Source: Aminobacter aganoensis
GTDB lineage: Bacteria; Pseudomonadota; Alphaproteobacteria; Rhizobiales; Rhizobiaceae
Direction of reading: 5' to 3'
Assembly (NCBI RefSeq): GCF_014206975.1
Contig: NZ_JACHOU010000008.1
Coordinates: forward strand, 62,001-126,000
Length of the DNA stretch: 64,000 bases
Below the pieces are notes generated by a model that saw only the letters and a list, made by a program, of their open reading frames with translations, was not told the origin of the DNA and did not search any database. Shown here piece after piece: positions 41,959 to 59,843 of the stretch. The position numbers were made by a program, and so were the translations under genes. The stretch's first letter is position 1. Each line of letters starts with the position of its first letter.

Positions 41959-43031
41959 TCCGCCGTCCGGAACACCTCGCGCACGGTCTTGATCGCGCCG
42001 GCGTCGTTGACGCGGTAGCCGGGCAGTTGCGAGATCGCCGCGTGGAACTCTTCGCCGCGCATGATCGACAGCACGCGCTTGATGGCGTCGAGTTCGAGGA
42101 TCTCCTTGCGGCAGACGAAGAAGTAGTCCTCGGTCACCAGCCGGACGAAGTCGAGATCGAACTGCCGCGCCGCAGCCTCGACGCCGAAGGCAACGTCCGC
42201 CATGCCGCTGGCCACATAGGCCGCAACGGCGGCATGGGTGAATTCGGCGTGCTCGTAGCCATTGATGCGGGAGCTGTCGATGTGGTGCTGGGCCAGCAGG
42301 TGACCGAGCAGCATCCGCGTGCCGGAATCCGGGTCGCGGTTGACGAAGCGGATCTGCGGATCGAGCAGGCGCTCGAGCGATGTGATGCCGAGCGGGTTTC
42401 CGCGCGCTACCATCAGCCCCATTTCCCGCGTCACGAAGCCGATGACACGGTGCGCGCTCGGCGTCAGCCAGCCCTTGCTCGCCGCGATGGCGCGCTTGCG
42501 CAACTCGCCCTGCGGCAGGTGCATGCCGGCAAGGTCGCAGCCGTCATGCGCCAGCGAGGCCAGCGAATTCTGGTTGCTGACATAACGGAAATCGACCCCG
42601 ATGTCGGGCTCGCGGCTGAGCAGTTCCCTCAGCTTCGGCACCGCGAAGCCATGGCTGGCATGCACCCGCAGGATCAGCGGCCCATGTGGCAGCAACTGGT
42701 TGATTTCGGTCTCCAACTCCTGCGACAGGTTTTGCAGCAGCGGTCCGAGCCGCGCCTCCAGCCTCTGGCCGGCCCACACCAACTTGTCGCCGAACGGCGT
42801 CAGGCTGGTGCCGCTGCCCTGCTTGCGCACCACCAGAGGCGTGTCGAAAAAGGCCGACCATTTCTCGATCAAATTCCAGGCGTGGCGGTACGAAACGCCG
42901 GCGAGATCGGCAGCCTTGGTGATTTTGCCGCTCGACCGTATCTCGGCCAGGAAACCGAGCATGATCTGCATGGATTGTGAATCCGCACTGCGCCTGAAAC
43001 GCCAGACGGGATCGATCTCGATACGGATCAT
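41955..43031 (-). CDS. ModE-like helix-turn-helix regulator with periplasmic-binding-protein-like domain
   Basis: A 358-residue regulator. Residues about 20-90 are a LysR/ModE-type winged helix ([65 protein letters not shown]). From about 115 a PBP-like domain follows ([20 protein letters not shown]..., [51 protein letters not shown]), as in proteins sensing molybdate or small organic ligands. It diverges from the ALDH gene across 232 bases holding repeated ATATCTT motifs, so it probably controls the ALDH/hydrolase pair. Confidence 0.88.
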
Positions 43032-43263: not shown

Positions 43264-44718
43264 GTGGTATACGCCTTTTCCGACTGGACCCAGAAGCTGT
43301 TGATTGACGGCAAGCGGGTCGACGCGCTTTCCGGCCGCACCTTCGACACGCTCGACCCCTCGACAGGCAACGTCATCGCCAGGATCGCCGAGGCCGACGC
43401 CGCCGATGTCGACGTTGCCGTACGCTCCGCCCGCGCCGCCTTCGAGGGCGAATGGGGCCGGATGCGCGCCAGCGAGCGCGGCCTGCTGATGCTCAAGCTG
43501 GCCGAGCTGATCCGCCAGAACGAGGACGAGCTGGTCAACCTGGAAAGCCTCGACAGCGGCAAGCCGGTGTCGGCCATCCGCCGCCAGGACCTGCCGGCGG
43601 TCATAGACACGCTGGTCTACTATGCCGGCATGGCCGACAAGATAAACGGCCAGGTCATCCCGGCGCGCCAGGACGCGCTGACCTACACCGTGCGCGAGCC
43701 CCTCGGCGTCGTCGGCGCCATCATCCCGTGGAACTTCCCGCTGATGATCGGCATGTGGAAGATCGCGCCGGCGCTGGCCTGCGGCTGCACCGTGGTGCTG
43801 AAGCCGGCCGAGATCACGCCGCTCACGGCGCTGCGCATCGGCGAACTGGCACTCGAGGCCGGCTTCCCCGCCGGCACGCTCAATGTCGTGCCGGGCTTCG
43901 GCAAGATCGCCGGACAGGCGATCGTCGACCATCCCGACATCGACAAGGTCACCTTCACCGGCTCGCCCGTCGTCGGCCGCCAGATCCTGCAGGGTGCCGC
44001 CAGCAACCTGAAGCGGGTTACGCTGGAACTCGGCGGCAAGTCGGCCAACATCATCTTCCCCGACGCCGACCTCGACGCCGCGGTCAAGGCAGCCGGTGCC
44101 GGCATCTTCTTCAACACCGGCCAGGTCTGCTCGGCGGGGTCGCGCATCCTCGCCCATGAATCCGTCTATGACGAGGTCGTCGAGCGCCTGGCAGCGCGTG
44201 CCGCGTCCACCCGCATCGGCGACCCGCGCGAGACCTCGACCGCCATGGGCCCGTTGGTCTCGGAAGTGCAGATGAAGCGCGTGCTCGACTACATCGAGAT
44301 CGGCAAGAAGGAAGGCGCTGCCCTGGTCGCCGGCGGCAGCCGCCATGGCGACACCGGCTACTACGTCCAGCCGACCGTCTTTGCCGGCGTCGAACACGAG
44401 ATGCGCATCTCGCAGGAAGAGATTTTCGGCCCGGTCGCCACCGTCATCAGGTTCAAGGACGACGACGATGCCCTGCGCATCGCCAACGGCACCGTCTACA
44501 GCCTCGCCGCAGGCGTCTGGACCGGCGACATCGCCCGGGCCCATCGCTTCACCCGGCGCCTGAAGGCCGGAACCGTGTGGGTCAACACCTACGGCCCGAC
44601 AGACATCAGGTTGCCATGGGGCGGCGCCCGCGATTCCGGCTTCGGCCGCGAGCATGGCGACATGGCGATCGAGAATTTCACCGAGCCCAAGGTCGTCTGG
44701 ATCAACACCGGCCGCTGA
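43264..44718 (+). CDS. NAD(P)-dependent aldehyde dehydrogenase, possibly 10-formyl-THF dehydrogenase module
   Basis: A 484-residue ALDH-superfamily enzyme. PWNFPLMIGMWKIAPALACGCTVVLKPAE binds the cofactor; the general base is E255 in LELGGKSAN and the nucleophile C289 in NTGQVCSAGSR; the C-terminal EEIFGPVATVIRF and PWGGARDSGFGREHG are conserved. In isolation it could oxidise betaine aldehyde or another aldehyde. The next gene encodes an ALDH1L1-like hydrolase module, so I infer a joint role in oxidising 10-formyl-THF to THF and CO2. GTG start with a GGAGGA site. Divergent from the ModE-like regulator. Confidence 0.92.
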   Translation: MVYAFSDWTQKLLIDGKRVDALSGRTFDTLDPSTGNVIARIAEADAADVDVAVRSARAAFEGEWGRMRASERGLLMLKLAELIRQNEDELVNLESLDSGKPVSAIRRQDLPAVIDTLVYYAGMADKINGQVIPARQDALTYTVREPLGVVGAIIPWNFPLMIGMWKIAPALACGCTVVLKPAEITPLTALRIGELALEAGFPAGTLNVVPGFGKIAGQAIVDHPDIDKVTFTGSPVVGRQILQGAASNLKRVTLELGGKSANIIFPDADLDAAVKAAGAGIFFNTGQVCSAGSRILAHESVYDEVVERLAARAASTRIGDPRETSTAMGPLVSEVQMKRVLDYIEIGKKEGAALVAGGSRHGDTGYYVQPTVFAGVEHEMRISQEEIFGPVATVIRFKDDDDALRIANGTVYSLAAGVWTGDIARAHRFTRRLKAGTVWVNTYGPTDIRLPWGGARDSGFGREHGDMAIENFTEPKVVWINTGR

Positions 44719-44831: not shown

Positions 44832-45821
44832 ATGCGAATTGCAATCATCGGACAGCAGGCATTCGGACAGAGCGTGTTGGAGGCGTTCCTGGCGCGCGGC
44901 GATGAGGTCGCCGGCGTCTTCTGTGCGCCGGAAAAGACGGGCGCCAGGCCAGACCCGCTGCGGCTTGCGGCGGAAAAGGCCGGCCTGAAGGTGTTTCAGC
45001 TTCCGAGCCTCAAGGGCGAGGCGGCGGAAAACGCGCTGCGCGCGCTCGATGTCGATCTCGCCGTCATGGCCTATGTGCTGCAGTTCGCACCGCAGGCTTT
45101 CATCAACATCCCCCGGCACGGCACCATCCAGTACCACCCCTCGCTGCTGCCCAGGTACCGCGGCCCGAGCTCCATCAACTGGCCGCTGATCAAGGGCGAC
45201 ACCGAGACCGGCCTCACCATCTTCCGACCGACCGACGGCCTCGATGAGGGCCCGGTGATCCTGCAGAAGACGGTCGGCATCGGTCCCGACGACACGCTCG
45301 GCAGTGTCTATTTCGACTGGCTGTTCCCGCTCGGCGTCGACGCCATGCTGGAGGCGGCGGACCTGGTCGTCGCGGGCAAGCACAGCGAAACCGAGCAGGA
45401 CGAGAGCCAGGCCTCCTACGAGGGCTGGTGCAAGGACGGCGAAGCCAGGATCAACTGGAGCGCCCACATCGACGCCGTGCACAATCTCATCCGAGGCTGC
45501 GACCCCGCGCCGGGCGCATGGACCACGGTCAACGGCACCAAGGTGCGGCTGTTCGAGGCGCGCAAGCATCTCGTTCGCCGGTTCGAGGACGTCACCGGCA
45601 AGCCCGGCAAGATCGTCTCGATCGGCGAGCGCAGCATCGGCATATCGGTGCAGGGTGGCGTGGTGGAGATCTTCAAGGTCCGCACCGAAGCCGGCCAGAA
45701 GCTTTCCGGTGCAGGCCTCGCCGAGGCCCTCGGCCTGAAGCCGGGCATGAAGCTCGGCACCGACACACCGGCACCAGTGCAGGCCCCTGCGCCATCGAAG
45801 ACAGCCGAACCGGTCAGCTGA
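44832..45821 (+). CDS. 10-formyltetrahydrofolate hydrolase-domain protein (ALDH1L1 N-terminal-like)
   Basis: A 329-residue formyltransferase-fold protein. YHPSLLPRYRGPSSINWPLIKGDTETGLTIFRPTDGLDEGPVILQKTVGIGPDD resembles the hydrolase domain of ALDH1L1 more than Met-tRNA formyltransferase. H102 (in HPSLLPR) and D138 (in GLDEG) stand 36 residues apart, matching catalytic His106 and Asp142 of that enzyme. The C-terminal OB-like part has ASYEGWCKDGEARINWSAHIDAVHNLIRGCDPAPGAWT, also ALDH1L1-like. No acyl-carrier domain follows; the end is a Pro/Ala tail. It sits 113 bases after the ALDH gene on the same strand. Confidence 0.88.
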   Translation: MRIAIIGQQAFGQSVLEAFLARGDEVAGVFCAPEKTGARPDPLRLAAEKAGLKVFQLPSLKGEAAENALRALDVDLAVMAYVLQFAPQAFINIPRHGTIQYHPSLLPRYRGPSSINWPLIKGDTETGLTIFRPTDGLDEGPVILQKTVGIGPDDTLGSVYFDWLFPLGVDAMLEAADLVVAGKHSETEQDESQASYEGWCKDGEARINWSAHIDAVHNLIRGCDPAPGAWTTVNGTKVRLFEARKHLVRRFEDVTGKPGKIVSIGERSIGISVQGGVVEIFKVRTEAGQKLSGAGLAEALGLKPGMKLGTDTPAPVQAPAPSKTAEPVS

Positions 45822-45834
45822 ATATTTCCCCCGC

Positions 45835-45850
45835 GTCGGCCGAGGCCGAC
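45835..45850. terminator. Short hairpin between convergent genes
   Basis: GTCGGCC (45835-45841) pairs with GGCCGAC (45844-45850) just after the hydrolase-domain gene and before the convergent torT. No T run, so termination is uncertain. Confidence 0.35.
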
Positions 45851-45909
45851 CATCCTCCCGCGAAGCCGCCGACGATCGCCTCCCCTGACTGTTACGCGGT
45901 CACGCCGTC

Positions 45910-46992
45910 TCACTGGACCTGGAAGGTCGGCTTGAACCAGGCCGGCGCCAGGCTTCGCTCGAGGTCGAGCGACTGCACATTGGTCCGGTCGACGATCTCG
46001 ACCGGCGGGCCAACATGGCGATAGCGCAGCGTGCCTTCGATCGCCCGGATCGCCTGGTCGATGGCGATGCGGCCCTGCAGCGGCGGCGAGTCGGTCGGCG
46101 CGGCTACGACCTTGCCACGGTTGATTTCGCGGAAGGTGCCGTGGGTGAAATAGTCGGCCAGGATCCGCACCTGGTTTGCCCGGCCCTGCGCCCTTAGGAT
46201 ACTGACCGCGGCGTCGGCCGTCGGCGCGCTGCCGACGATGTAGTCGATGTTGGGCTGCGTCTCGAGCAGTTCCTCGATCAGCAGCAACTGGATCTCCACG
46301 CCCGTGTCGCCCCATTTGACGGCTGCGATCTCGGCCGAGCTCTGCTTCAGCGCATCCCGGAAACCAGCTTCGACGAACTTGACCCAGCCGGCCCCCTTGG
46401 GACCTGGAAACCAAGCCACCCTGACCGGCATGGTCCCGGCCGGGTGAAGGCGGGCAAGATAGGCGCCGATCGACCGGCCCATCTCCTCCCACGAAACCCC
46501 CGACTTTGCCGTGATTCCGGCGTCGTCGATGTCGTTGACCGAGGCGATGACCGGGATGCGGCGGGCGATTTCCTTGATTGTCGGCGTCAGCCCCTCATAG
46601 GACACGGTCCCGACGATCAGGGCGTCGGCGGTGGCGCTGCAGGTCCGGATCTGCTCGATCTGGCGGTCGAGATTGGGGTAGCCTCCGGCCTCGACGACGG
46701 TCAGCCTCACGCCCGCCGAACGCGCCTGCTCGACCATGCCGTAGTTGACGCTGACCCAGTAGGAATCCTTGAGATGCGGATAGGAAGCGCAGATGCGCCA
46801 GGCTTTCGCGGCCTTCGCCACCGGCTGGTAGTCGATCGTCGTCGCCGGCCGGGAATAGCCGAACGGCTCCGCCCACGCGTTGAGCTTCCATGTGCCGGCG
46901 ACATCCTCGGCCATGGCCTGCTGGCCGCAACCAAGCGCCAGGAAGACGGCGGCGAGGAAGCTGAAGCGATCAGGGCGTGCCGGCAATTTCAT
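45910..46992 (-). CDS. torT: TorT-like periplasmic TMAO-binding protein
   Basis: A 360-residue periplasmic protein with a signal peptide ([28 protein letters not shown]) and a type I binding-protein fold. The segment [52 protein letters not shown] is very close to E. coli TorT, and [17 protein letters not shown] and [24 protein letters not shown] follow in the same order. In E. coli TorT binds TMAO and passes the signal to the TorS sensor domain. Here it diverges from torS with only 44 bases between the start codons. Confidence 0.9.
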
Positions 46993-47036
46993 CGGCGCAA
47001 GCTAGACAGCTTACGCCGGCAGCGCAAATATGGACC

Positions 47037-49955
47037 ATGCTTCATCGTTTCGGCATCGGCGGAAGGCTGTTCCTCGCCTTCCTGTGCATCACGGGATTGT
47101 CGCTGTCGTCGGGCATCGCCAGCTGGCTGATCCTGCGCAACATCGCCGACGCCCAGGCCGTGGTGAACGCCCAGGCGCTGCCCGCGGTGGCGGCAACCCA
47201 GCACACCGCCGAACTGAGCGCGAAGCTGATCGCCACCGCCCCCGCCCTTGCCGCCGTGCGTTCGCCCGACGAATTGCTGGCCGAGCAAGGCAAGCTCTCG
47301 ACGCTGTCGCAGGAACTCGTCAAGTCGCTGACCGAGGTCAGGCGGTTGTCGATCGATCCCCGGCTCGTCGAGGAATTTGCCGGCTCGGTCGAAAAGATGC
47401 TCGCCAACCTCAAGCAGAACAACGAGCTGGTGCGGCAGCGGCTGGACGAGGACAAGGCCTACCGCGAGGGCGCCGAAGCGGCGGCAACAGCTGCCCAGTC
47501 GATCCTGCTGCTGTCCGAGACCTTGATCTCCAACGCATCTGCCGGTGCCTCGGCGGTGACGGCCAATCTCTACGGCCTGATCGGCGATCCCGCGCGCCGG
47601 GAAGACGCCTACACCGCCGTCGACCGGCTGATCGAGCACGACATCTATCTGATGGAGCGCATGTACGAGCTGCGCCACCGCAGCGCACAGGTCAGCCTGC
47701 TGATCAACCGGCTCGGCCGGGCGGAGTCGCGTTCCGAAATCAGCGAGATCAGCGGCATCTTCCAGGACCACATGAAGGTCATCCGCCGTCGCATCCTGAG
47801 CATCGACGATCCGGTGCGGCGCAAGCAGGGTGTCGCCTTCTTCAGCGCCATCGAGGCGGCCGCCGGCGAGGTGCCGGTTTCGGGCTCCATCTTCGGCCGC
47901 CGCCAGCAGGTCATCGACCTCGCCGACAGGCTCGACGCCATGGCCCAGGCCAATCGCGATCTCGCCGTGACCCAGAACCAGGTCGCCCGCGACATCCTCG
48001 ATCGCTCCGACGAGTTCGCGAGGACGACGGCCGACCGCGCCGACGACGCCGTCCGCATCGGCGTCATCGTGCTCGTCGTGACTTTGCTCGGCGCCATCCT
48101 CGCCTCGGGCGCGATCGTCTGGCTCTATGTCGAGCGCAACCTTGTCCGCCGGTTGAGCGGCCTGTCGCGCGCCATGCAGCGGCTGACCGCAGGCGATCTC
48201 GATGTCACAGTCACCGATACCGGCGACGACGAACTGCGCACCATGGCGGTCGCCGTCAACCAGTTCCGCGACGAGTCGCGCCGCCGCCTCGAACTGGAGC
48301 AGGAGCGCGAACGCATCACCGACGAACTCCGGCGCCACCGCGAGGAACTCCAGCAACTGGTCGAGGAGCAGACCGAGCAGATCAGGCAGGTCAACACCCG
48401 CCTGCGCCAGGAGGCGATCGACCACGACCAGGCGCGAGCGCGAGCCGAACAGGCAAGCAGCGCCAAGTCGGCATTCCTCGCCACCATGAGCCACGAGATA
48501 CGGACGCCGATGACCGGCATGCTCGGCATGATGCGCCTGCTGGCCGACACCCGGCTTGGTCCGAGGCAGCGCGAGCACCTTTCGGTGGCGGCGAATTCGG
48601 GCGAGGCGCTGCTCGGCATCCTCAACGCCATCCTCGACTACTCCAAGGTCGAGTCGGGCAATGTCGCCGTCGAGAAGGTCGACTTCGACCTGTCGAAGCT
48701 GGTCACCGGCGTCGTCGCCTTCATGCGCCCGATGGCGACGGAAAAGGGCCTCGACCTGTGGCTCGAAATCGACCCGAAGCTGGCGCCTGCCTTTAGCGCC
48801 GACGCCGGCAAGATCCGCCAGGTCCTGTTCAACCTGGTCAGCAACGCGATCAAGTTCACCGAGCAGGGCCATGTCCGGGTCAAGGTAACGGTCGCCGCCG
48901 GCGCCAGCCAGGCGCAAACGGTGCGTCTCGCCGTGTCGGACACCGGCATCGGCATTTCGCCGAAGCGCCAGGAAGACATCTTCCAGGCCTTTACCCAGAT
49001 GGACGCCTCGATCACCCGACGCTTTGGCGGCACCGGACTGGGGCTGGCGATCAGCCGCGAATACGCCCGGCTCATGGGCGCCGATCTCTCGGTCAGTTCG
49101 CGCCAGGGCGCAGGCAGTATCTTCACGCTGGAGGTGCCATTGCGGAGGGCCGCCATCGAGGCCGGCCTACCCGCCGTCAAAAGCCGCCGCTCGCGCAAGG
49201 CCGCGGCCTCGCCGCGCAATATCCTGCTGGTCGAAGACGACGACGCCACCCGGCTGGTCTCGACCACGTTGCTGTCCCAGGCCGGCCACCGTGTGAAGGC
49301 GGTAAGCTCAGGCTACCTTGCCCTGGAAGCCATCGCCGACTTCCGGCCCGACATCCTGGTGATGGATGTCAGCCTGCCCGGCATCGACGGCATCGAGACG
49401 ATGAAACGGCTGCGCGCCGCGCTCTCGGCGCCCGACCTCCCCGTCGTTGCGATGTCGGCGCATGTGTTCAGGTCGGACATCGACCGCTATCTCGACTCGG
49501 GCGTCGATGCCTTCGTGGCAAAACCCATCGTCCACGAACAGCTGCTCGACGCCGTGGCAGCACTTGCCGGCCGCCCGGCCTCGGCCAGAAAACCCGTCGC
49601 CGCCTTCGACGCCGCCGCCTGCCAGGCCGATCTCGACGCACTCGGCCCCGAGACGGTGCGGCGGCTGCATCGCATCGCCCATGACAGCCTGCCCGGACGC
49701 TTCAAGTCGATGCACGATGCGCTGGAAGCCGGCGACCGCAAGACCATCGGCGACCTCGCCCATGCGACGCGAAGCTCGGCCGGATCGCTCGGTTTTCCGC
49801 GCCTGCTGCAGGCGGCCGAGGCGCTCGAAGCAGCGGCGGCCGACGAACCCGTCGCCGGGCTGAAGCGCAGGGTCAAGGACTGCGAGGCGGCCTTTGCCGA
49901 GGGCACGAAGCAATGGCAGACGTTGCTGGAGGCCGACCCGGCGCATTCGGCCTGA
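47037..49955 (+). CDS. torS: TorS-like hybrid sensor histidine kinase
   Basis: A 972-residue unorthodox kinase. TM1 is at about residues 10-32, the periplasmic helical TorS-type sensor at about 33-339, TM2 at about 340-365 and HAMP at about 366-420, then a coiled coil. The HisKA domain has phospho-acceptor H486 (MSHEIRTPM); HATPase has [16 protein letters not shown] and FGGTGLGLA; the receiver domain has D777 (VMDVSLPG); the Hpt domain has H909 ([13 protein letters not shown]). This matches E. coli TorS (914 residues), which relays phosphate to TorR in response to TorT-TMAO. ATG 47037 gives the TM1-ready N-terminus. torR converges downstream, 15 bases away. Confidence 0.92.
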
Positions 49956-49970
49956 CGGCAGGCCCTGGCC

Positions 49971-50705
49971 TCAGAAGCTTGCCGACGCGCGCACCATCTG
50001 GTGTGCATCCGGCGCGAAGAAATAACCCTCGCCATGGGCGGTGACGATGATGCGCGGCGTGCGCGGATTGTCGTTCAGCTTCTGCCGCAGCCGTCTGACC
50101 AGCACATCGACCGTGCGGTCGCTGGCGTCCCATTCGCGCCGCGAGATCTCGTGCAGAAGGCGTTCGCGCGACAGCACCTGTCCCGGATTGGCGGTCAGCA
50201 CCGATAAGAGCTTGAATTCGGCGCCGGTCAACTCGATGAAAGTGCCGTCGTCAGCCTGCAGCGTGCGCCGCGCGACCTCCAGCGTCCAGCCGTAGAAATG
50301 GCGAGTGCCCGAGGCCACGGGGGCCAGCCGTCCCTTGCCGACGCGGCGCAACAGGCCCTTGACCCGGGCCAGCAGCTCGCGATGTTCCACCGGCTTGGTG
50401 ACATAGTCGTCGGCGCCGATCTCGAGCCCAACGATGCGGTCCACCGTGTCGGTCCGGCCGGTGACCAGGATGATGCCGACGTCGGAGCGTTCGCGCTGCT
50501 CGCGGGTCAGCTTGAGGCCGTCCTCGCCGGGCAGATTGATGTCGATCATCAGCAGATCTGCCGGATGCCTGCCCATGATGGCCCGCATCTGCTCGCCGTC
50601 GCCCGCCTCGCTGACCTTGTAGCCCTCGGCCAGGAAGTAGCCGGCAAGCTTCGCCCGCGTGACCGGGTCGTCCTCGACGATCACGATGTGGTGCTGAGCC
50701 CGCAT
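49971..50705 (-). CDS. torR: TorR-like response regulator
   Basis: A 244-residue OmpR-type regulator. The receiver domain (about residues 6-118) has acidic E11/D12/D13, phospho-acceptor D55 (MIDINLPGEDG) and ILVTGRTDTVDRIVGLEIGADDYVTKP, nearly identical in style to E. coli TorR. The winged-helix domain (about 140-238) has ELTGAEFKLLSVLTANPGQVLSRERLL and RTVDVLVRRLRQKLNDNPRTPRIIVTAHGEGYFF. E. coli TorR turns on torCAD; no such genes are here, so its target may be the divergent ABC importer, 185 bases away. Confidence 0.93.
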   Translation of the reverse strand: MRAQHHIVIVEDDPVTRAKLAGYFLAEGYKVSEAGDGEQMRAIMGRHPADLLMIDINLPGEDGLKLTREQRERSDVGIILVTGRTDTVDRIVGLEIGADDYVTKPVEHRELLARVKGLLRRVGKGRLAPVASGTRHFYGWTLEVARRTLQADDGTFIELTGAEFKLLSVLTANPGQVLSRERLLHEISRREWDASDRTVDVLVRRLRQKLNDNPRTPRIIVTAHGEGYFFAPDAHQMVRASASF

Positions 50706-50737
50706 GCCATCTTATCCTCCCAAGCCCTGATTAACAT

Positions 50738-50790
50738 CTTTTCACAAGTCAGACCACGACTTTTACACCCCGCCCGACACCGGTTCACTT
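50738..50790 (+). promoter_or_regulatory. Possible TorR boxes upstream of the importer
   Basis: CTTTTCACAA (50738-50747) and CGGTTCACTT (50781-50790) each match the E. coli tor box CTGTTCATAT at seven of ten positions and lie in direct orientation between torR and the binding-protein gene. Weak matches of this size can arise by chance, so the call is tentative. Confidence 0.25.
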
Positions 50791-50890
50791 CTCACGGCTA
50801 TGTTTGCTGGGCTGGAGTGGAAACAGGTCCACAGAGACCGACCTCCGCATCCCGTGGGAACAATCGCAACACAAAGGAAAGGGAGGTTCA

Positions 50891-51844
50891 ATGAGGAATT
50901 TCACGAAGTCCGCAACTATGGCCACGATTCTGGCTTTTGCTACGGGCACGGCATTCGCCGAGGATTCCACTGACCCCATCAAGATCCCGACGCACAACTG
51001 GTCGAGCCAGATCGTCGGCGCCCACATCGTCGGCAAGCTGCTCGAAAAGGGCGGCGCCAAGGTCGAATACGTTTCCGCCGACAGCCAAGTCGTCTACACC
51101 GCGCTCTGCGAAGGCGACGTCAGCCTCGTGCACGAAGTCTGGGAAGGCGCCTTCGGCGTCGCTTTCCAGAAGGTGGTCAAGGAAGGTTGCGTCGTCGATG
51201 CGGCCACCCACGACGCCAAGACACGCGAGGAATGGTGGTACCCGACCTATGTCGAGGAAGTCTGCCCCGGCCTGCCGGCATGGGAAGCGCTGAATGCCTG
51301 CGCCGACAAGTTCGCCACCGCCGAAACCTCGCCGAAAGGCCGCTTCCTCGGCGGTCCGGTCGACTGGCTGAAACATGACTCCGAACGCGTCGAAGCCCTC
51401 GCCATGAATTTCGAGGTCGTCAACGCCGGTTCGGCTGCAGCCCTCTGGGCCGAGCTCGATTCCGCCGTCAAGCGCAAGGAGCCGATCGTCCTGTTCAACT
51501 GGACGCCGAACTTCGTCGAAGCGCTGTACGACGGCAAGTTCGTCGAATTCCCGGCCTTCGACCCCAAGTGCAAGGACGATCCGGCCTGGGGCAGCAACAA
51601 GGACCTGAGCTACGACTGCGGCAACCCGAAGGACGGCTACCTGAAGATCGCCGCCTGGAAGGAATTCCCGACCAAGTGGCCCAAGGCCTACGCCATCCTG
51701 CAGAAGATCAACTTCTCCAACATGGACATCGCGGTTCAGGCAAAGCTTGCCGACATCGACAACATGGAGCCCGAGCAGGCCGCCGACAAATGGCTGGCCG
51801 ACAACGAGGCTCGCTGGAAGGCCTGGCTGGGTTCCGCCAGCTAA
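50891..51844 (+). CDS. ABC transporter substrate-binding protein, betaine/TMAO class (TmoX/ProX-like)
   Basis: A 317-residue periplasmic binding protein with signal peptide MRNFTKSATMATILAFATGTAFAE. The OpuAC-type fold is visible: PTHNWSSQIVGAHIVGKLLEKGGAKVEYV, HEVWEGAFGVAFQKVV, EEWWYPTYVEEVCPGLPAWEAL, GPVDWLKHDSERVEALAMNFEVVNAGSAAALWAELDSAVKRKEPIVLFNWTPN. Tryptophans 37, 84, 115/116 and 204 could form the aromatic cage that binds a trimethylammonium or N-oxide group. Position next to torTSR favours TMAO, but betaine, choline or carnitine are possible. GGGAGG precedes the start. Confidence 0.88.
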   Translation: MRNFTKSATMATILAFATGTAFAEDSTDPIKIPTHNWSSQIVGAHIVGKLLEKGGAKVEYVSADSQVVYTALCEGDVSLVHEVWEGAFGVAFQKVVKEGCVVDAATHDAKTREEWWYPTYVEEVCPGLPAWEALNACADKFATAETSPKGRFLGGPVDWLKHDSERVEALAMNFEVVNAGSAAALWAELDSAVKRKEPIVLFNWTPNFVEALYDGKFVEFPAFDPKCKDDPAWGSNKDLSYDCGNPKDGYLKIAAWKEFPTKWPKAYAILQKINFSNMDIAVQAKLADIDNMEPEQAADKWLADNEARWKAWLGSAS

Positions 51845-51948
51845 CCCTGCACCAAACGACATCGCGTGGTGAAAGTGGCGCTTGCAGCAGCAGGCGCCAC
51901 CTCGCCCCTGCACACCCATCGGCCACCTTGGCGAGAGGCAAACTCGAC

Positions 51949-52977
51949 ATGACCGAAGCAAAAATCGCATGCCGCAATCTCTGGAAGCTCTACGGCGCCG
52001 ACCCTGCCGGCTTCCTGAAACGCCACGCCGGCAACCCCTCGATCGAAACCATCAGGGCCGAAGGCTACGTTCCCGCCGTCCGCAACGTGTCGTTCGAGGT
52101 CATGCCGGGCGAAATCCTTGTCGTCATGGGCCTGTCGGGCTCGGGCAAGTCGACACTTCTGCGCTGCCTCGCACGCCTGGTCGAGCCGACCTCCGGCGAG
52201 GTCATGTTCGAGGGTCGCGACATCCTTGCCGCCAGCGAGCGCGAGCTGATCGAGATCAGGCGCCACAAGATGGGCATGGTCTTCCAGCACTTCGCCCTGC
52301 TGCCGCACCGCACCGTGCTCGACAATGTCGCCTTCCCGCTCCAGGTCCGCGGCACCGACCGCCAGAAGCGCGAGGCCCGCGCCCGTGAAGTGATCGAACT
52401 GGTCGGTCTGAAAGGCCGCGAGGCCTACTATCCGCGTGAGCTCTCCGGCGGCCAGCAGCAGCGTGTGGGCATCGCCCGTTCGCTCGCCGTCGGTCCCGAC
52501 GTCTGGTTCCTCGACGAGCCCTTCTCGGCACTCGACCCGCTCATCCGCCGCGAGATGCAGGACGAGTTCCTGCGCCTGCAGAAGATGCTCAACAAGACCA
52601 TCGTCTTCATCACCCACGATTTCGACGAGGCGATCCGTGTCGCCGACCGCATCGCCATCATGAAGGATGGCGTCGTCGAACAGCTTGGCACCGCAGAAGA
52701 ACTGGTCACCTCCCCGGCCACGCCCTACGTCGCCGAATTCACCCGCAACGTTTCTCACGACCGCTTGCTCTCGGTGGGCGCCGTCATGGCGCCGGCAGCC
52801 GCCCGCAAGCCGGATGCGGCAGCCGTCCAGGTCGAGGCGCTTCTGGCGAGCGTCGCCCGCCAGGTGCTGTCGTCGGAACGCCCGGTCGACGTCGTCGACG
52901 ACGGCGGCGCCCTTGTCGGCACCCTCAGCCGCGACAGCCTGCTCGATGCACTCTACGGCAAGGAACAGCACGCATGA
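51949..52977 (+). CDS. ABC transporter ATP-binding protein, ProV/OpuAA type
   Basis: A 342-residue ATPase. The N-terminal KLYGADPAGFLKRHAGNPSIETIRAEGYVPAVRNVSFEV insertion is typical of glycine-betaine/TMAO importers. It has Walker A GLSGSGKST (about residues 65-73), Q loop MVFQHFALLPHRT, signature LSGGQQQRVGIARSLAVGPDVWFLDEPFSALDP and H loop FITHDFDEAI. After about residue 270 there is a short CBS-like remnant (PVDVVDDGGALVGTLSRDSLLDAL). The last four bases overlap the permease start (ATGA). Confidence 0.93.
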   Translation: MTEAKIACRNLWKLYGADPAGFLKRHAGNPSIETIRAEGYVPAVRNVSFEVMPGEILVVMGLSGSGKSTLLRCLARLVEPTSGEVMFEGRDILAASERELIEIRRHKMGMVFQHFALLPHRTVLDNVAFPLQVRGTDRQKREARAREVIELVGLKGREAYYPRELSGGQQQRVGIARSLAVGPDVWFLDEPFSALDPLIRREMQDEFLRLQKMLNKTIVFITHDFDEAIRVADRIAIMKDGVVEQLGTAEELVTSPATPYVAEFTRNVSHDRLLSVGAVMAPAAARKPDAAAVQVEALLASVARQVLSSERPVDVVDDGGALVGTLSRDSLLDALYGKEQHA

Positions 52978-54959
52978 GTGCCGCGATCCTGACCCGCGCC
53001 ACCGAGATGGAGCCGCAAAAACCCCTGGCGTCCCTGACAAAACCGCTGCTCGTGGTGCTGCCCTTCATCATCCTGCTGCTGGCAGCCTCGCTGCTGCCCG
53101 GCTGGGCGGTCAGGGTTCCCGCAGGCTGGACCGTCCCGTTCGTCGACTGGGCGAACACGCTGATCGAGCACATGCGCGATGACGCCATATTCGGGCTGTT
53201 TTCGTTCCGCGACCTGACCCGCGCCATCGCCGAACTCATCACCTGGCCTCTGGCCTTCGTCGAGGGCCTGCTGGTTTCGGGCTTTCCGAAGATCGGCCTG
53301 GCAGCGATGCCATGGGTCATGACCGCAGGCCTGTCCGGCGTGCTCGGCTGGTATCTGAAGGACTGGCGCCTCGGCCTGCTCTCAGCCGGATGCGTGGCCT
53401 ACATGGCGATCTTCGGCAAGTGGGAGCTGTCGATGATCACCCTTTCAGTGGTTCTTGTCGCGGCCCCGATCGCCGGGCTCATCGGTTTCCTGATCGGTAT
53501 CCTCGCGGTCAAGAAGCCGTGGTTCGAGGCACTCGTCGTGCCGCTGCTCAACGTGTTGCAGTCGCTGCCGCACTTCTCCTACCTGATCCCGATCGCCGTG
53601 TTCATCGGCGTCGGCCACAAGGCCGGAACGATCGCCACCGTCATCTTCGCCATCCCGCCCATGGCGCGCCTTACCATCCTCGGCCTGAAGGGCGTTGCCG
53701 AGGAAGTTCGCGAGGCCGGCAAGATGGCCGGCTGTACCCGCTTCCAGACATTGTGGATGGTCGAGATCCCGTCCGCTCGCCAGCCGCTCCTGGTCGGCGT
53801 CAACCAGGTCATCATGCAGTGCCTGGCAATGGTGGTGATCGCATCCTTCGTCGGCGCCCGCGGCCTGGGACACGATCTCCTGTTCCGGCTCCAGGCGCTG
53901 AAGATCGGCCAGGCGCTGGAAAGCGGCGTCGCCATCGTCCTGATGGCGATCACGCTCGACCAGTTGAGCCGCGCTGCCGCCCACAAGGAGCCGTCGCATG
54001 TCGCGGACGCCACTCTCCTGCAGCGCTTTCCGTTCCTCGTGGCTTCCGTGCTGGTCGTCATGGCGTCGCTCCTGCTGGCCGCGATCACGCCCTATGCCCA
54101 GGCCTGGCCGTCCGAACTTGCCCTCAGCACCGCACCGCTCTGGGATGCGCTGGTCGACTGGGTCACCGTCACCTTCTACGACCCGCTGCAATATGTCCGC
54201 AACGCCATGCTGCTCTACGTGCTGATCCCGGTGCGCGACCTGTTCCAGAGCATTCCCTGGACGGCGATGGTCGCGCTCGTCGCCGCGGCAGGCTGGTCGC
54301 TCGGCGGCTTGCGCCTCGCGCTCACCGTCTCCGGCTTCGTGCTGTTCATCGCCTTCGCCGGCTACTGGGAGCGGTCGCTGATCACCGCCTACATGGTGAC
54401 GGTCGCCGTGCTGATCTGCATCCTGGTCGGCCTTCCGATCGGCATCTGGGCATCGCGCAGCGAACGCCGCACTGCCATCGTCAAGCTGCTGTGCGACACC
54501 TTCCAGACCTTCCCGTCCTTCATCTACCTGATCCCCGTGATCATGCTGTTCAAGGTCGGCGACGTCGCGGCGATTTCAGCGATCATCATCTACGCGATGA
54601 TCCCGATCGTCCGCTACACGATCTTCGGGTTGCGCAACGTACCGTCCGAAATCGTCGAGGCCGGCATCACCTCGGGCTGTACCAGGCGGCAGCTGCTGTG
54701 GAACATCCGCATGCCGCTCGCCTTCCCCGAGATTATGCTCGGCATCAACCAGACAATCATGTTCGCGCTGTTCATGGTCATCATCGCTGCCTTCATCGGC
54801 ACCAAGGACATCGGCCAGGAGATATTCCGCGCCCTGACCTTCAACGATGCCGGCAAGGGGCTGGTGCTCGGCCTCTGCGTCGCCTTCATGGGCCTCACCG
54901 CCGACCAGCTGATCACCGCCTGGGCGGCCCGCCGAAAGCAGCGGCTCGGCCTGTCCTAG
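52974..54959 (+). CDS. Fused double-domain ABC permease, ProW/TmoW type
   Basis: A 661-residue inner-membrane protein made of two permease units. Each has its own EAA loop: EEVREAGKMAGCTRFQTLWMVEIPSARQPLLVGVNQ near residue 242 and SEIVEAGITSGCTRRQLLWNIRMPLAFPEIMLGINQ near residue 557. Each is preceded by the class motif L-P-H-F-S-Y-L-I-P or F-P-S-F-I-Y-L-I-P. Usual ProW has one such unit and dimerises; here one chain supplies both. About 14 membrane segments are likely. It completes the importer with the preceding two genes. Confidence 0.92.
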   Translation: MSAAILTRATEMEPQKPLASLTKPLLVVLPFIILLLAASLLPGWAVRVPAGWTVPFVDWANTLIEHMRDDAIFGLFSFRDLTRAIAELITWPLAFVEGLLVSGFPKIGLAAMPWVMTAGLSGVLGWYLKDWRLGLLSAGCVAYMAIFGKWELSMITLSVVLVAAPIAGLIGFLIGILAVKKPWFEALVVPLLNVLQSLPHFSYLIPIAVFIGVGHKAGTIATVIFAIPPMARLTILGLKGVAEEVREAGKMAGCTRFQTLWMVEIPSARQPLLVGVNQVIMQCLAMVVIASFVGARGLGHDLLFRLQALKIGQALESGVAIVLMAITLDQLSRAAAHKEPSHVADATLLQRFPFLVASVLVVMASLLLAAITPYAQAWPSELALSTAPLWDALVDWVTVTFYDPLQYVRNAMLLYVLIPVRDLFQSIPWTAMVALVAAAGWSLGGLRLALTVSGFVLFIAFAGYWERSLITAYMVTVAVLICILVGLPIGIWASRSERRTAIVKLLCDTFQTFPSFIYLIPVIMLFKVGDVAAISAIIIYAMIPIVRYTIFGLRNVPSEIVEAGITSGCTRRQLLWNIRMPLAFPEIMLGINQTIMFALFMVIIAAFIGTKDIGQEIFRALTFNDAGKGLVLGLCVAFMGLTADQLITAWAARRKQRLGLS

Positions 54960-55002: not shown

Positions 55003-55470
55003 TCAGCGTTCGCGCAGCATCAGCCGGTTGGCAAAGCCGCAGGTCAACGCCAGTCGCGTCGTCCGCTGACCGCTGCCGCCAGGCCCGGTGCACCGGATCC
55101 CGATCCGCGAGTTGATCGTTTCGAGCAGCGCCGTATCCTCTGCCGCCGCGACCAAGGCCGCGACAGCCAAGGGATCGACGTCGTCGGGCGCCCCTTGGTC
55201 TGCTCCGCCAGCCTTCACCATGTTTCCGTCATCGGCTGCGTCGGCATAATGCCTTAGCATCGCCCGGATCAGCTCGCCCTTGGTCGAGAAGTGGTGCAGC
55301 AGCCCGCCCTTGCTGATGCCGGCCTGGCGGGCAACGGCATCGAGGGTGACCTTGCCGAAGCCGTTTTCCAGCGCCACGCAAACCGCCGCATGGAACAGGC
55401 GCTCCTTTTGCTCGAGCCGTCGCACGAGTGCTGTCCGTCCGGATGCCGGCCGGCTGGCGGAACCGGTCAT
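55003..55470 (-). CDS. Short TetR-family regulator
   Basis: A 155-residue protein: the TetR helix-turn-helix region at about residues 17-65 (ERLFHAAVCVALENGFGKVTLDAVARQAGISKGGLLHHFSTKGELIRAMLRHYAD) and a C-terminal part of only about 85 residues, shorter than the usual 120-150, so the ligand pocket may be reduced. The ATG at 55470 overlaps the RND pump stop as ATGA, so it is translated as the last gene of the pump operon. The longer frame to 56058 lies inside the pump gene and is an artefact. Confidence 0.85.
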   Translation of the reverse strand: MTGSASRPASGRTALVRRLEQKERLFHAAVCVALENGFGKVTLDAVARQAGISKGGLLHHFSTKGELIRAMLRHYADAADDGNMVKAGGADQGAPDDVDPLAVAALVAAAEDTALLETINSRIGIRCTGPGGSGQRTTRLALTCGFANRLMLRER

Positions 55471-58400
55471 TCCGCCGGCACCCGTTCCGCCTCGGACGCA
55501 TCTGTGCCCGCCTGCGCTTCCGCCTTGCCCCGCCGCGTCAGCTTCATGACGGCGACGAAGAACACCGGCACGAAGAACACGGCAAGCACGGTCGCCGAGA
55601 TCATGCCGCCCAGCACGCCGGTACCGATCGCGTTCTGGCTCGCGGCGCTGGCCCCGGTGGCGATGGCCATCGGCACGACGCCGAGGCTGAAGGCCAGCGA
55701 CGTCATGATGATCGGCCGGAAGCGCAGCTTGGCCGCTTCCACCGTCGCATCGAGCAGCGACATGCCCTCCTTGCGCAGGTCCTTGGCGAACTCGATGATC
55801 AGGATCGCGTTCTTGGCCGACAGGCCGATGATGGCGATCAGGCCGACCTTGAAGTAGACGTCGTTGGGCATGCCCATGACCATCACCGCCAGCACCGAGC
55901 CAAGCACGCCCAGCGGCACGACGAGGATCACCGACACCGGGATCGACCAGCTCTCGTAGAGTGCCGCCAGAAGCAGGAACACGAACAGGATGCTGAGCAC
56001 GATCAGGGCCGGCGCCTGCGAGCCGGACTGGATTTCCTGCAGCGACTGGCCGGTCCATTCATAGCCGAAGCCGGCCGGCAACTCGTCCGCCAGGCGCTCC
56101 ATCTCCGTGATCGCCGCACCCGAGGAATGGCCCGGCGCCGCCTGGCCGCTGATGCGCACCGCAGGATAGCCGTTGTAGCCAACGACCTGCGCCGCGCCCT
56201 TCTGCCATTCGACGCTGGCGAACGACGACAGCGGCACCATACCGCCATGGGCGTTACGCACGTTGAGGCTCATGAGGTCCTCGGTTTGCATGCGCCGCCC
56301 TGCATCCGACTGCACCGTCACGCGCTGCATCCTGCCGGCATTCGGGAAGTCGTTGACATAGGCCGAGCCGAGATTGGCCGAGATCGTCGAATTGATATCG
56401 GCGAAGCTGACGCCGAAAGTGTTCGCCTTCTCGCGGTCGATCAACAGGTTGACCTGCGCCGCATCGGGCATGCCTTCGACGCGCAGGCCGGTGATGACGT
56501 CGCTGTCCGCCGCGGCCGCCATCAGCTGGTCGCGCGCGGCAGCCAGCGCCGCCTGGCCCCGTCCCGACCTGTCCTGCAGCCGGAAGGTGAATCCGTTGGA
56601 CGTGCCGAGGCCCTGGATCGGCGGCGGCGACAGCGCGAAGGAAACGGCGTCCTTCATCTGGAACAACGCCTTGTTGGCCCGGCCGGCGATGGCCGCAGCC
56701 GAGTTGTCGTCGTCGCGTTCGCTCCAGTCGTCCAGCGTCACGAAGGCCAGGCCGGCGTTCTGGCCGGCGCCCGAGAAGCTGAAGCCGTTGACCACCACCA
56801 TGCGGTCGACCGCCTCCTCGCCCATGAAGATCGTCTCGACATTCTCGGCGATCGCCCGAGTGCGGTTGCTGCTCGATTCCGGCGGCCCCTGGATGTCGAC
56901 GATCAGGAAGCCCTGGTCCTCATTGGGCAGGAACGACGTCGGCAACTGGATGAAGGACCAGCCGAGGCCGACCAGCAGCGCCAGGTAGATGACCATGAAG
57001 CGGCCCGTACGCTTGACGATCCATCCAACGCTGGAAGTATAGCTGCGCGTCGTCCGGTCGAAGCCACGGTTGAACCAGCCGAAGAAACCCTTCTTCTCAT
57101 GGTGCCCCTTGGCGACCGGCTTCAGGAAGCTGGCACAGAGCGCCGGCGTCAGCGACAGCGCCAGGAAACCGGAGAACAGGATCGACACCACCATCGTCAG
57201 GCTGAACTGCCGGTAGATGACACCGACGGCTCCCGGGAAGAACGCCATCGGCACGAACACCGCCGTCAGCACCAGCGTGATGCCGATGATCGCACCGGAG
57301 ATCTGCTTCATCGCCTTGCGCGTCGCCTGGCGTGGCGACAGCCCCTCTTCGGCCATGATGCGCTCGACATTTTCGACCACCACGATGGCATCGTCGACCA
57401 GGATGCCGATGGCCAGCACCATCGCAAACATCGTCAGCACGTTGATCGAGAAGCCGGTCGCCAGCATCACCGCGCAGGTGCCGAGCAGCGCCACCGGCAC
57501 GACCAGGGTCGGGATGACCGTGTAGCGGAAGTTCTGTAGGAACAAAAACATCACAGCAAAGACGAGCAGGATCGCCTCGATGAGGGTGCTGATCACCTTC
57601 TCGATGGACACCTTCACGAAAGGCGAGGTGTCGTAAGGGATCGCGTATTCCAGCCCCTCGGGGAAGAAGCGCGACAGCTCCTCCATCTGCGCCCGTACCG
57701 CTTCCGATGTCGCCAGCGCATTGCCTGTCGGCGACAGCTGCACGGCAATCGCCGCGCTCGGATTGCCGTTCAGCCTGGTCGAGAAATTGTAGTTCTCGGC
57801 GCCGACCTCGATCCGCGCCACGTCGGACAGCCGCACCGAAGAGCCGTCGGGATTGGCGCGCAGCACGATCGAGCCGAACTCCTCGGCGGAGGTGAGCTGG
57901 CCCTTGACCAGGACGGTAGCCGATATCTGCTGCGTGATCGGGTTGGGGTCGGCGCCGATGCGGCCGGCGGCGACCTGCGCGTTCTGGGAGCGGATCGCGT
58001 TGGTGATATCGTCCGACGTCAGGTTCAGGCCGACCATCTTGTCGGGGTCGATCCAGATGCGCATCGCGCGCTGCGTCGCAAACAGCTGCGCCCGGCCGAC
58101 GCCGTCGATGCGGCGGATTTCGCTGAGCACGTTGCGGCTCAGATAGTCGCCAAGGCCGACGACGTCGAGCGAGCCGTCCGTCGAGGTCAGCGCCACCATC
58201 ATCAGGAAGCCGCTGCCGGCCTCCTCGATGCGGATGCCGACCTGCTTGACGACCTGCGGCAGCCGCGGCTCGACGCGGCGAACCGCGTTCTGGATGTCGA
58301 TCGAGGCCTGGCCGCTGTCGGTTCCCGGCGCAAAGGTCGCGGTGATGCTGACCATGCCGGAGGAATCTGAAGTCGATTCGAAATAGAGCAGACCGGGGAC

Positions 58401-58613
58401 GCCGTTCAGCTCTTCCTCGATCGGCCGGGTGACGCTCTGGTAGATATCTTCAGGCGCAGCGCCGGCATAGGTCGCGTTGATCGAGACCTGTGGCGGCGCG
58501 ACGTTCGGATATTGCGCCACCGGCAGGAACGGAATGGCGATGGCGCCGGCGAGCATGATGAAGATCGCCACGACCCATGCGAAGATGGGTCGATCGATGA
58601 AGAACTGAGGCAT
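55467..58613 (-). CDS. RND efflux pump inner-membrane transporter, HAE1 (AcrB-like) family
   Basis: A 1048-residue transporter of the usual length. The start MPQFFIDRPIFAWVVAIFIMLAGAIAIPFLPVAQYPNVAPPQVSINATYAGA is characteristic of AcrB/MexB. TM4 carries GILVDDAIVVVENVERIM (the proton-relay aspartates), the porter loops follow, and the C-terminal half has GLSAKNAILIIEFAKDL and TSLAFSLGVVPMAI. It exports drugs or toxic organics by proton antiport with the membrane-fusion protein encoded just upstream; no outer-membrane channel gene is in the window. Coupled to the short TetR gene downstream. Confidence 0.95.
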   Translation of the reverse strand: MPQFFIDRPIFAWVVAIFIMLAGAIAIPFLPVAQYPNVAPPQVSINATYAGAAPEDIYQSVTRPIEEELNGVPGLLYFESTSDSSGMVSITATFAPGTDSGQASIDIQNAVRRVEPRLPQVVKQVGIRIEEAGSGFLMMVALTSTDGSLDVVGLGDYLSRNVLSEIRRIDGVGRAQLFATQRAMRIWIDPDKMVGLNLTSDDITNAIRSQNAQVAAGRIGADPNPITQQISATVLVKGQLTSAEEFGSIVLRANPDGSSVRLSDVARIEVGAENYNFSTRLNGNPSAAIAVQLSPTGNALATSEAVRAQMEELSRFFPEGLEYAIPYDTSPFVKVSIEKVISTLIEAILLVFAVMFLFLQNFRYTVIPTLVVPVALLGTCAVMLATGFSINVLTMFAMVLAIGILVDDAIVVVENVERIMAEEGLSPRQATRKAMKQISGAIIGITLVLTAVFVPMAFFPGAVGVIYRQFSLTMVVSILFSGFLALSLTPALCASFLKPVAKGHHEKKGFFGWFNRGFDRTTRSYTSSVGWIVKRTGRFMVIYLALLVGLGWSFIQLPTSFLPNEDQGFLIVDIQGPPESSSNRTRAIAENVETIFMGEEAVDRMVVVNGFSFSGAGQNAGLAFVTLDDWSERDDDNSAAAIAGRANKALFQMKDAVSFALSPPPIQGLGTSNGFTFRLQDRSGRGQAALAAARDQLMAAAADSDVITGLRVEGMPDAAQVNLLIDREKANTFGVSFADINSTISANLGSAYVNDFPNAGRMQRVTVQSDAGRRMQTEDLMSLNVRNAHGGMVPLSSFASVEWQKGAAQVVGYNGYPAVRISGQAAPGHSSGAAITEMERLADELPAGFGYEWTGQSLQEIQSGSQAPALIVLSILFVFLLLAALYESWSIPVSVILVVPLGVLGSVLAVMVMGMPNDVYFKVGLIAIIGLSAKNAILIIEFAKDLRKEGMSLLDATVEAAKLRFRPIIMTSLAFSLGVVPMAIATGASAASQNAIGTGVLGGMISATVLAVFFVPVFFVAVMKLTRRGKAEAQAGTDASEAERVPAE

Positions 58614-58625
58614 GTCTGATGATCC

Positions 58626-59843
58626 TTAGCCGGCCTTGGGCTTGCTGGCGGGCGTTGCCGCGCCGCTGCTGCCGGTTGCTGACGTCTTGTCCTGCGGCTT
58701 CCACGCCTGGGCCGCCACCTCGGCGCCCGGCCTGACCTTCTGGAATCCTTCGACGACAACCTTGTCGCCCGCCTCGACGCCGTCTTCGACGACCCAGCGG
58801 TCGCCGACCACGCGCCCGACCCGGACCTGGCGACGCTCGGCCACGTTCTTGTCGTTCACCACATAGATCTGGGCGCTGCCGCCGGAATCGCGCTGGATCG
58901 CCTGCTGGGGGATGGCGATGGCGTTCTGCTGCACACCCTGCTCTATCAGCACCCGGACGTACATTCCAGGCAGCAGGTCGCCCTCGGGATTGGGGAACTC
59001 GCCACGCAGCGTCACCTGCCCGGTCATCGCGTCGACCGCGGCTTCCAGGAACAGCAGCTTGCCCGGATGGGCATATTCGCTGCCGTCGTCGAGACGAAGC
59101 CCGACGCGCGCGGCCCCTGCCTCGTCATTCGTCAGCGCGCCGTCTTCGAGCTCGCGCCGCAGCCTGAGAAGCTCGTTCGCCGACTGGGTGAAGTCGGCAT
59201 AGACCGGATCGATCTGCTGGATCGTCGCCAGGCTTTCGGGACCGTTGGCGCTGACGAGCGCACCCTCGGTGACCATGGCACGGCCGATGCGCCCGGAGAT
59301 CGGCGCCTTGATTTCGGCATAGCCGAGATTGAGCTGCGCCGTCGCAAGCCCCGCGGTGGCGATCGCCACGTCGGCGTCGGCCTGCGCAAGGGCGGCGACG
59401 GCATTGTCGAGTTGCTGGCCGCTGGAGACATTGCGCTCGCGCAGTTCGCTCTGGCGCTCGGACTGCTGGCGCGCCTGGAGTTGCACGGCCTGCGCGCGTT
59501 GCAGCGTCGCCTCGGCGCTTGCCACCTGCGCCTGGAACAGCGCCGGGTCGATGCGGTAGAGCACGTCGCCCTCCTTCACCAGGCTGCCCTGTTCGAAGAC
59601 GCGCTCCAGCACGATGCCCGAGACCCGCGCCCGCACCTCGGCGATGCGGGTCGGGGCAATGCGCCCCGGCAGCTCGTTCAGGATGGGTAGCGCTTCGGGA
59701 ACCACCTCGATCACGCTCACCGGCGATGGTGGAGGGGCTGACGGCTTCGGTTCGGACGAGCTGTTGGCATCGCTGCATCCGGAGACCAGGGCGAGCAGGC
59801 TGATGGCCGCTGCAAGTTTCAGCGGCAGGGCGGGTATACGCAT
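58626..59843 (-). CDS. RND efflux membrane-fusion (AcrA-like) lipoprotein
   Basis: A 405-residue periplasmic adaptor. The N-terminus RIPALPLKLAAAISLLALVSGCS has a lipobox (LVSGC). The chain then shows the barrel-sandwich start (PGRIAPTRIAEVRARVSGIVLERVFEQGSLVKEGDVLYRIDPALF), an alpha-hairpin of about 100 residues (QARQQSERQSELRERNVSSGQQLDNAVAALAQADADVAIATA) and beta-barrel and proximal domains (GPESLATIQQIDPVYADFTQS). ATG 59843 is preferred; GTG 59855 adds four residues. The RND gene follows after 12 bases. Confidence 0.93.
   Translation of the reverse strand: MRIPALPLKLAAAISLLALVSGCSDANSSSEPKPSAPPPSPVSVIEVVPEALPILNELPGRIAPTRIAEVRARVSGIVLERVFEQGSLVKEGDVLYRIDPALFQAQVASAEATLQRAQAVQLQARQQSERQSELRERNVSSGQQLDNAVAALAQADADVAIATAGLATAQLNLGYAEIKAPISGRIGRAMVTEGALVSANGPESLATIQQIDPVYADFTQSANELLRLRRELEDGALTNDEAGAARVGLRLDDGSEYAHPGKLLFLEAAVDAMTGQVTLRGEFPNPEGDLLPGMYVRVLIEQGVQQNAIAIPQQAIQRDSGGSAQIYVVNDKNVAERRQVRVGRVVGDRWVVEDGVEAGDKVVVEGFQKVRPGAEVAAQAWKPQDKTSATGSSGAATPASKPKAG

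Follow-up and report, generated by a model that had tools for sequence, protein, structure and literature searches.

In the alphaproteobacterium Aminobacter aganoensis, the genes for a TorT-TorS-TorR sensing system of the kind that responds to trimethylamine N-oxide (TMAO) lie next to tmoXWV, which encode a predicted TMAO importer. The locus occupies positions 45910-54959 of the 64,000-nucleotide stretch of DNA analysed here (hereafter, the window), on contig C8 of a 5.76 Mb assembly rated 100% complete. We put at about 85% the probability that the TorTSR phosphorelay targets this importer operon instead of the reductase operon torCAD. The original prediction, made from the sequence of the window, had proposed that TMAO sensing is coupled here to uptake and catabolism of methylated amines. 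The proposed coupling is supported by tmm and tdm elsewhere in the genome, the lack of a TorA-type enzyme, an intact predicted TMAO pocket (7/7 residues), the promoter layout and the recurrence of the arrangement; its case is now stronger and wider than first stated, through the Escherichia coli torC-like promoter and the recurrence.

The TorTSR phosphorelay and the TmoXWV importer

The three regulatory genes stand where they had been placed from the sequence, and each product exceeds a curated NCBIfam cut-off (coordinates in Table 1): TorT scores 311.7 bits with TIGR02955 (cut-off 310) and 386.7 bits with NF008185 (cut-off 200), TorS 726.6 bits with TIGR02956 (cut-off 676.5), and TorR 305.7 bits with NF008034 (cut-off 275). 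TorT gives 213 bits with the TorT structure 3o1h in the Protein Data Bank (PDB). TorS contains the TorS sensor domain PF21689 (147.9 bits) within a Pfam domain set that is complete for a hybrid kinase (sensor, HAMP, HisKA, HATPase, receiver and Hpt). The H-D-H-D phosphorelay residues, TorS H506, D797 and H929 and TorR D55, are conserved and align with their E. coli counterparts at what we take to be the positions of the latter. Identity to E. coli K-12 (NC_000913.3) is 38% for TorT, 29% for TorS and 55% for TorR; to Aminobacter niigataensis DSM 7050 it is 96% for TorT and 97% for TorR.

NF008185 by itself is unspecific, given that a protein without an adjoining TorS (L041) reaches 434 bits, and identification of TorT from this family alone was rejected. 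The name is retained because TorS and TorR adjoin and because W168 is present, a position held by F or Y in 17/17 fetched homologues without full-length TorS. We take W168 to form the TMAO site together with the TorT residues D76, Y78, W79, Y105 and Y281; none of the six varies among 41 tmo-linked and 11 tor-linked rows, and TMAO is the predicted ligand of this TorT. The 17 NF008185-passing proteins without full-length TorS nearby (L041-L050, L054-L060) are an observation in their own right: eight adjoin an ATPase of the ATP-binding cassette type and are likely importer substrate-binding proteins that NF008185 would name TorT, and in two loci (L054, L055) the kinases match the TorS core only. 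A search for TorT in viral contigs returned none.

The importer beside torR had been likened to the marine TmoXWV system, and the comparison bears this out. The best PDB match of TmoX is 4xz6 (401 bits; next solved binder, 40 bits), with 178 of 311 residues identical (57%); according to the passages of PMC8918994 on which we draw, 4xz6 is TmoX of Ruegeria pomeroyi DSS-3, and seven TMAO-pocket residues are given there. All seven are kept (W37, W84, F88, E113, W159, F202 and W204 in the numbering of TmoX itself). Among 41 TmoX rows from torTSR-linked loci, W55, W102, E131 and W177 are present in 41/41, F220 and W222 in 40/41 (one gap), and F106 is F in 31/41. TmoX passes no NCBIfam cut-off; as in R. 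pomeroyi, genes for an ATPase and a permease accompany that for the binding protein. From the pocket and these genes, tmoXWV are predicted to encode an importer of the TmoX subfamily that transports TMAO.

An alternative would keep the circuit as described and make another methylated solute (glycine betaine, or other N- or S-oxides) its signal and cargo, with TMAO incidental. The curated models passed by the ATPase and the permease are indeed betaine and choline ones. Against this stand the 401 bits of the binding protein with 4xz6, compared with at most 40 for other listed solved binders, the intact TmoX pocket, the invariance of the presumed TorT TMAO site and the presence of tdm within the fetched stretch of 12 of the 37 complete tmoX-bearing loci described below, and we consider this alternative improbable.

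Recurrence of the torTSR-tmoX arrangement

A TorT alignment, run against the GTDB species genomes, picked out 258 relatives; ranked by likeness to this TorT, the top 80 were retained (L062-L141). The importer adjoins torTSR in 40 of the 80 fetched loci, with gene order and promoter array as in the window. Forty-nine loci are complete (both TorS and TorR matched, and 1.5 kb or more of sequence past torR); 37 of these contain tmoX, eight contain torA and four contain neither, the last group including, by our tally, L085, where torT lies beside tmoW and no tmoX is on the contig. In 35 of the 49, tmoX is directly divergent from torR. The remaining 31 loci comprise 26 in which TorS or TorR gave no match above the threshold and five that end less than 1.5 kb past torR. 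Other genera and families have the arrangement too, and the notion that the window is a unique oddity was rejected on these counts (37/49). A single switch event was likewise rejected: on a TorR tree of 57 rows, the tmo label requires three changes (shuffled mean, 14.1), the tree giving the number of changes and not their direction.

Two observations concern the composition of this set. L103, from an assembly labelled Enemella evansiae (an actinobacterium), is a Roseobacter-like torTSR-tmoXWV locus, for which assembly contamination is likely. The Photobacterium rows among L118-L141 have torT and torS; within what was fetched, no TorR match passes the threshold, and torA/torC matches occur among them in L139 only.

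A second sample, drawn evenly from the class, comprised 385 genomes, of which 21 have NF008185 matches at 23 places. Outside this genome there are 22 such places; 20 were retrieved, all but G162, whose genus is already represented by two of them, and G313. Full-length TorS and TorR adjoin TorT in three of the 20: L051 and L053, with tmoX, and L052 (L076 of the 80-locus set). In L052, a molybdopterin oxidoreductase lies beside torT, and the divergent gene is unseen because the contig ends 290 bases beyond torR. The other 17 places lack full-length TorS. The arrangement is thus spread over families yet sparse in the class sample.

A four-site tor-box promoter between torR and tmoX

The gap between torR and tmoX contains four decamers at offsets 0/10/31/53, equal to the E. 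coli torC spacing, followed by a -10 element that reads towards tmoX (50728-50804 in all). The TA of the -10 element lies at the start of box 4 plus 18 in 38 of 40 promoters, E. coli torC among them. The E. coli tor-box sequences that we used concur with those in the relevant passages of PMC9239176. The repeats were first spotted in close relatives, and the scoring template was then taken from the E. coli torR-torC gap alone; with it, no more than 2 of 200 shuffles score as well as the real sequence in 27 of 39 torR-tmoX gaps. When 23 hand-chosen representatives, the window included, are scored with each of 6336 spacings, that of E. coli comes out on top, with a mean of 23.26 against 18.49 (s.d. 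0.57) for all spacings. By clade, its rank is 1 in the Paracoccaceae/Roseobacter group, 1 in the Rhodospirillales-like group and 2 in Phyllobacteriaceae.

A 40-column motif of the array, trained on 20 loci outside the family to which the window belongs, scores 32.5 bits at 50728, with a runner-up of 3.6 bits in the 64 kb, and 35.5 bits at torC in a 16-kb E. coli tor region, where the next site has 6.4 bits. In the 80 loci, 52 sites reach at least 20 bits: 39 at tmoX, four at tdm, three at torC, one at tmoW and five unlabelled, four of which lie beside torT or torR near contig ends. Twenty of the tmoX sites are in training loci and 19 come from 20 held-out loci, the sole one under the threshold being L097 (11.4 bits). 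L052/L076, its divergent gene unseen, nonetheless has an array of 37.1 bits. The shuffled control gave three sites of at least 20 bits in 7.2 Mb (top, 26.7). TmoX was matched in 43 of the 385 class-sample genomes, and 30 loci were taken as an array control. The array is present in 3/3 TmoX loci beside torTSR (32.5, 21.6 and 21.1 bits) and in 0/27 without torTSR (top, 11.0 bits); four of the 27, being short, may miss the upstream region, and torTSR absence is as judged by the NF008185 scan. The four-site layout is thus present at the target promoter in the window, and TorR is predicted to bind it.

The gap is common to torR and tmoX, which leaves room for a reading in which the array serves torR autoregulation only and tmoXWV answer to another regulator, such as an AraC protein of the TmaR type, their linkage being mere hitch-hiking; the trimethylamine (TMA) genes of R. 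pomeroyi do use TmaR and TmoR, according to PMC13390433. Natural variants argue against it. In L063 and L064, about 4 kb separate torR from tmoX, and the array is found at tmoX (30.9 and 36.3 bits) and not at torR (best, 8.8 and 1.2 bits). The direction of the -10 element, the second arrays of six relatives described below and the 27 array-free tmoX loci without torTSR speak in the same sense, and we regard autoregulation alone as very improbable. By eye, from translations, the torR-tmoX interval of L063 (2434-4775; Aminobacter carboxidus) reads as a second response regulator, a histidine kinase and a further open reading frame (ORF).

Second arrays and the torT-side tdm

In some relatives tdm follows tmoV or torT, and between one and four tdm matches, pieces among them, occur in each of eight relatives. 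A second array of 31-40 bits lies directly after torT in L062-L065, L067 and L071 (16.4 bits in L068); where tdm was matched, in four loci, this array stands before it. The sequence of the window parts from that of A. niigataensis (L062) after torT, at a junction three bases before the second array of L062, the one that precedes tdm; this genome is therefore without the torT-side tdm and keeps the copy on contig C13. L093 (the same contig as L051) has torTSR-tmoX-tmoV without a tmoW match in place, and a methyltransferase-like ORF, recognized by eye, adjoins.

The operon behind the array is a reductase in E. coli, Pseudovibrio and others and an importer in 40/80 loci, and in several Aminobacter relatives importer and tdm each have an array of their own. 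We think it probable that TorTSR and the four-box promoter form a portable TMAO-sensing module and not a respiratory regulator, with the spacing kept to the base across many Alphaproteobacteria as well as E. coli and the operon exchanged, an example of a promoter layout outlasting the operon that it drives.

Reductase and methylated-amine catabolism in the genome

The absence of torC, torA and torD, noted from the sequence, holds: a tblastn search with the E. coli proteins found no match to any of them in the window, to which the search for TorC and TorD was confined. Genome-wide, six proteins contain PF00384, including NuoG, NapA and FdhA, which pass their cut-offs. The other three (L002, L005 and L006) score 93, 157 and 76 bits with TIGR00509 (cut-off 1018) and 49, 90 and 25 bits with the TorA family TIGR02164 (cut-off 1465). 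A TorA-type enzyme elsewhere in the genome was accordingly rejected, none of the six coming near the TorA or BisC cut-offs.

The original prediction had suggested looking for tmm, tdm or methylamine genes elsewhere in the genome, and tmm, tdm, Dmm-type and N-methylglutamate-pathway genes were found on other contigs. Tmm (832 bits with PDB 5ipy) and Tdm (1208 bits with 9q59, labelled 'trimethylamine N-oxide demethylase') are encoded 2.4 kb apart on contig C13, near FolD and two amino-acid permeases; Tdm, in an open frame of 802 amino acids, is the only Tdm-sized one of two DUF1989 matches in the genome. Contig C39 encodes haem-dependent N-demethylase-like, DmmA-like and GCV_T proteins, and contig C19 encodes GmaS (665.7 bits with TIGR03105, cut-off 469.6) together with subunits that resemble those of sarcosine oxidase and glutamate synthase. 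Judged by families and PDB matches, the genome thus has genes for TMA/TMAO oxidation (Tmm, Tdm, Dmm-type, GmaS), with predicted substrates.

A respiratory pathway defines this sensor family, and L002, L005 and L006 stay below the cut-off of every NCBIfam family shown; TMAO might therefore still be respired through an unrecognised reductase, the importer being secondary. The distance of these three proteins from the TIGR00509 and TIGR02164 cut-offs and the lack of torCAD in the window make this extremely unlikely.

Proposed mechanism and comparison with known systems

In the circuit that we propose, TMAO-bound TorT would switch on TorS, phosphate would pass from TorS H506 to D797, to H929 and on to TorR D55, and phosphorylated TorR would sit on all four tor boxes between torR and tmoX. 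Box 4 would take the place of a -35 element, RNA polymerase would be recruited to the conserved -10 element, and tmoXWV would be made when TMAO is present outside the cell. Imported TMAO would be demethylated by Tdm and the products used via the Dmm and N-methylglutamate routes, presumably in aerobic metabolism.

In E. coli, as here, the target operon is divergent from torR, the boxes are spaced identically and the -10 element keeps its distance from box 4; the target there is torCAD, whereas here it is predicted to be tmoXWV, without a TorA-type enzyme. The genes torT and torS are divergent in both, with their places relative to torR swapped. The R. pomeroyi importer resembles that of the window in its components and pocket, yet the TMA genes there are reported to be under TmaR and TmoR, whereas tmoXWV of the window lie behind a TorR-type promoter; according to PMC13390433, TmaR is the master regulator and responds to a downstream catabolite, and TmoR responds to dimethylamine (DMA). 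Aminobacter is a genus studied for methylated-amine use (passages of PMC5520151 and PMC9699525), and Paracoccus aminophilus TorS is listed in an excerpt of PMC3925955 as controlling a reductase operon. A link of TorTSR to tmoXWV or tdm was not found in the open PubMed Central literature among the matches listed; an apparent co-occurrence of TorR and TmoX was due to chance, 'TorS' in PMC7574528 was part of 'Torstensson', and PMC4949985, also listed for TorS and a TMAO demethylase, deals with E. coli.

Several points weigh against a TorR-driven importer. The regulators of R. pomeroyi TMA genes are reported to be TmaR and TmoR, with TMAO a minor TmoR effector (PMC13390433). Ranking by likeness to this TorT favours the same wiring in the 80-locus set, and the torTSR-tmoX combination occurs in only 3 of the 385 class-sample genomes, the window's included. 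With the E. coli template, 12/39 torR-tmoX gaps are not significant, and the boxes of the window have diverged from the E. coli consensus (23/40 matches; 1 of 200 shuffles as good). In the window alone, 23 of 6336 spacings, that of E. coli included, score equally or better, and the spacing is weak in three of six clades (rank 24 in the Aestuariivirga group, 203 in L081 and L087, and 1051 in L093 and L097, of 6336). The recovery of E. coli torC by the motif is not independent, because it was the E. coli template that selected the sites used for training, and the top shuffled site (26.7 bits) exceeds the sites of L093/L152 (21.1) and L096/L144 (21.6). Finally, tdm is not visibly under TorR here, because the tmm/tdm stretch on C13 (L016) has no array (best, 2.1 bits). 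Arrays are likewise absent from the gmaS, dmm and second HODM stretches (L181-L183; best, 6.8 bits).

The way in which TMAO is sensed by bacteria that use it as food, and not as an electron acceptor, is known for few cases. In part of the Alphaproteobacteria, Aminobacter included, this task seems to fall to a sensor known from textbooks as an anaerobic one. If so, terrestrial and marine users of methylated amines would gain a direct sensor of external TMAO, by a logic that differs from those of R. pomeroyi TmaR (a late catabolite) and TmoR (DMA and, less, TMAO). The natural variants, namely the second array, the genes inserted between torR and tmoX and the missing torT-side tdm, make the system testable.

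Table 1. Features at and beside the torTSR-tmoXWV locus (window coordinates)
Feature	Position	Strand	Description
torT	45910-46992	-	Partner of the sensor kinase in the periplasm; homology predicts TMAO binding
torS	46977-49955	+	Hybrid sensor kinase; ATG at 47037 is an alternative start
torR	49971-50705	-	OmpR-family response regulator; phospho-acceptor D55
tor-box array	50728-50790	+	Four decamers: 50728-50737, 50738-50747, 50759-50768, 50781-50790
-10 element TATGTT	50799-50804	+	18 bases after start of box 4; reads towards tmoX
tmoX	50891-51844	+	TMAO-class substrate-binding protein (predicted); divergent from torR
tmoW	51943-52977	+	ProV-type ATPase; TIGR01186 proV, 347 bits (cut-off 326.6)
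tmoV	52974-54959	+	Fused permease, two BPD_transp_1 stretches; TIGR03416, 376 bits (cut-off 363)
Junction after torT	45822-45909		Sequence leaves that of A. niigataensis L062 14 bases beyond the torT stop (after 45896)
Formyltransferase-fold protein	44832-45821	+	Nearest the N-terminal part of 10-formyl-tetrahydrofolate dehydrogenase
Aldehyde dehydrogenase	43264-44718	+	PF00171, 612 bits

Neighbouring genes

The one-carbon-folate genes that had been read upstream of the locus are plausible, as a 10-formyl-tetrahydrofolate dehydrogenase-like protein lies beside an aldehyde dehydrogenase. The formyltransferase-fold protein scores 215 bits with 10-formyl-tetrahydrofolate dehydrogenase chains versus 132 with Fmt, and the aldehyde dehydrogenase is possibly the other half of a split 10-formyl-tetrahydrofolate dehydrogenase. 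Further upstream, 41955-43031 encodes a ModE/LysR-like DNA-binding domain fused to a periplasmic binding protein-like domain, a candidate one-component anion sensor, and the product of 32725-34092 has the two BAAT domains, of the bile-acid/acyl-CoA thioester hydrolase type, which one would not expect in a soil bacterium. Directly after tmoV and opposite to it lie efflux genes of the resistance-nodulation-division type (55003-60527; AcrB-type permease and MexC-like adaptor), with TetR-type regulators on both sides.

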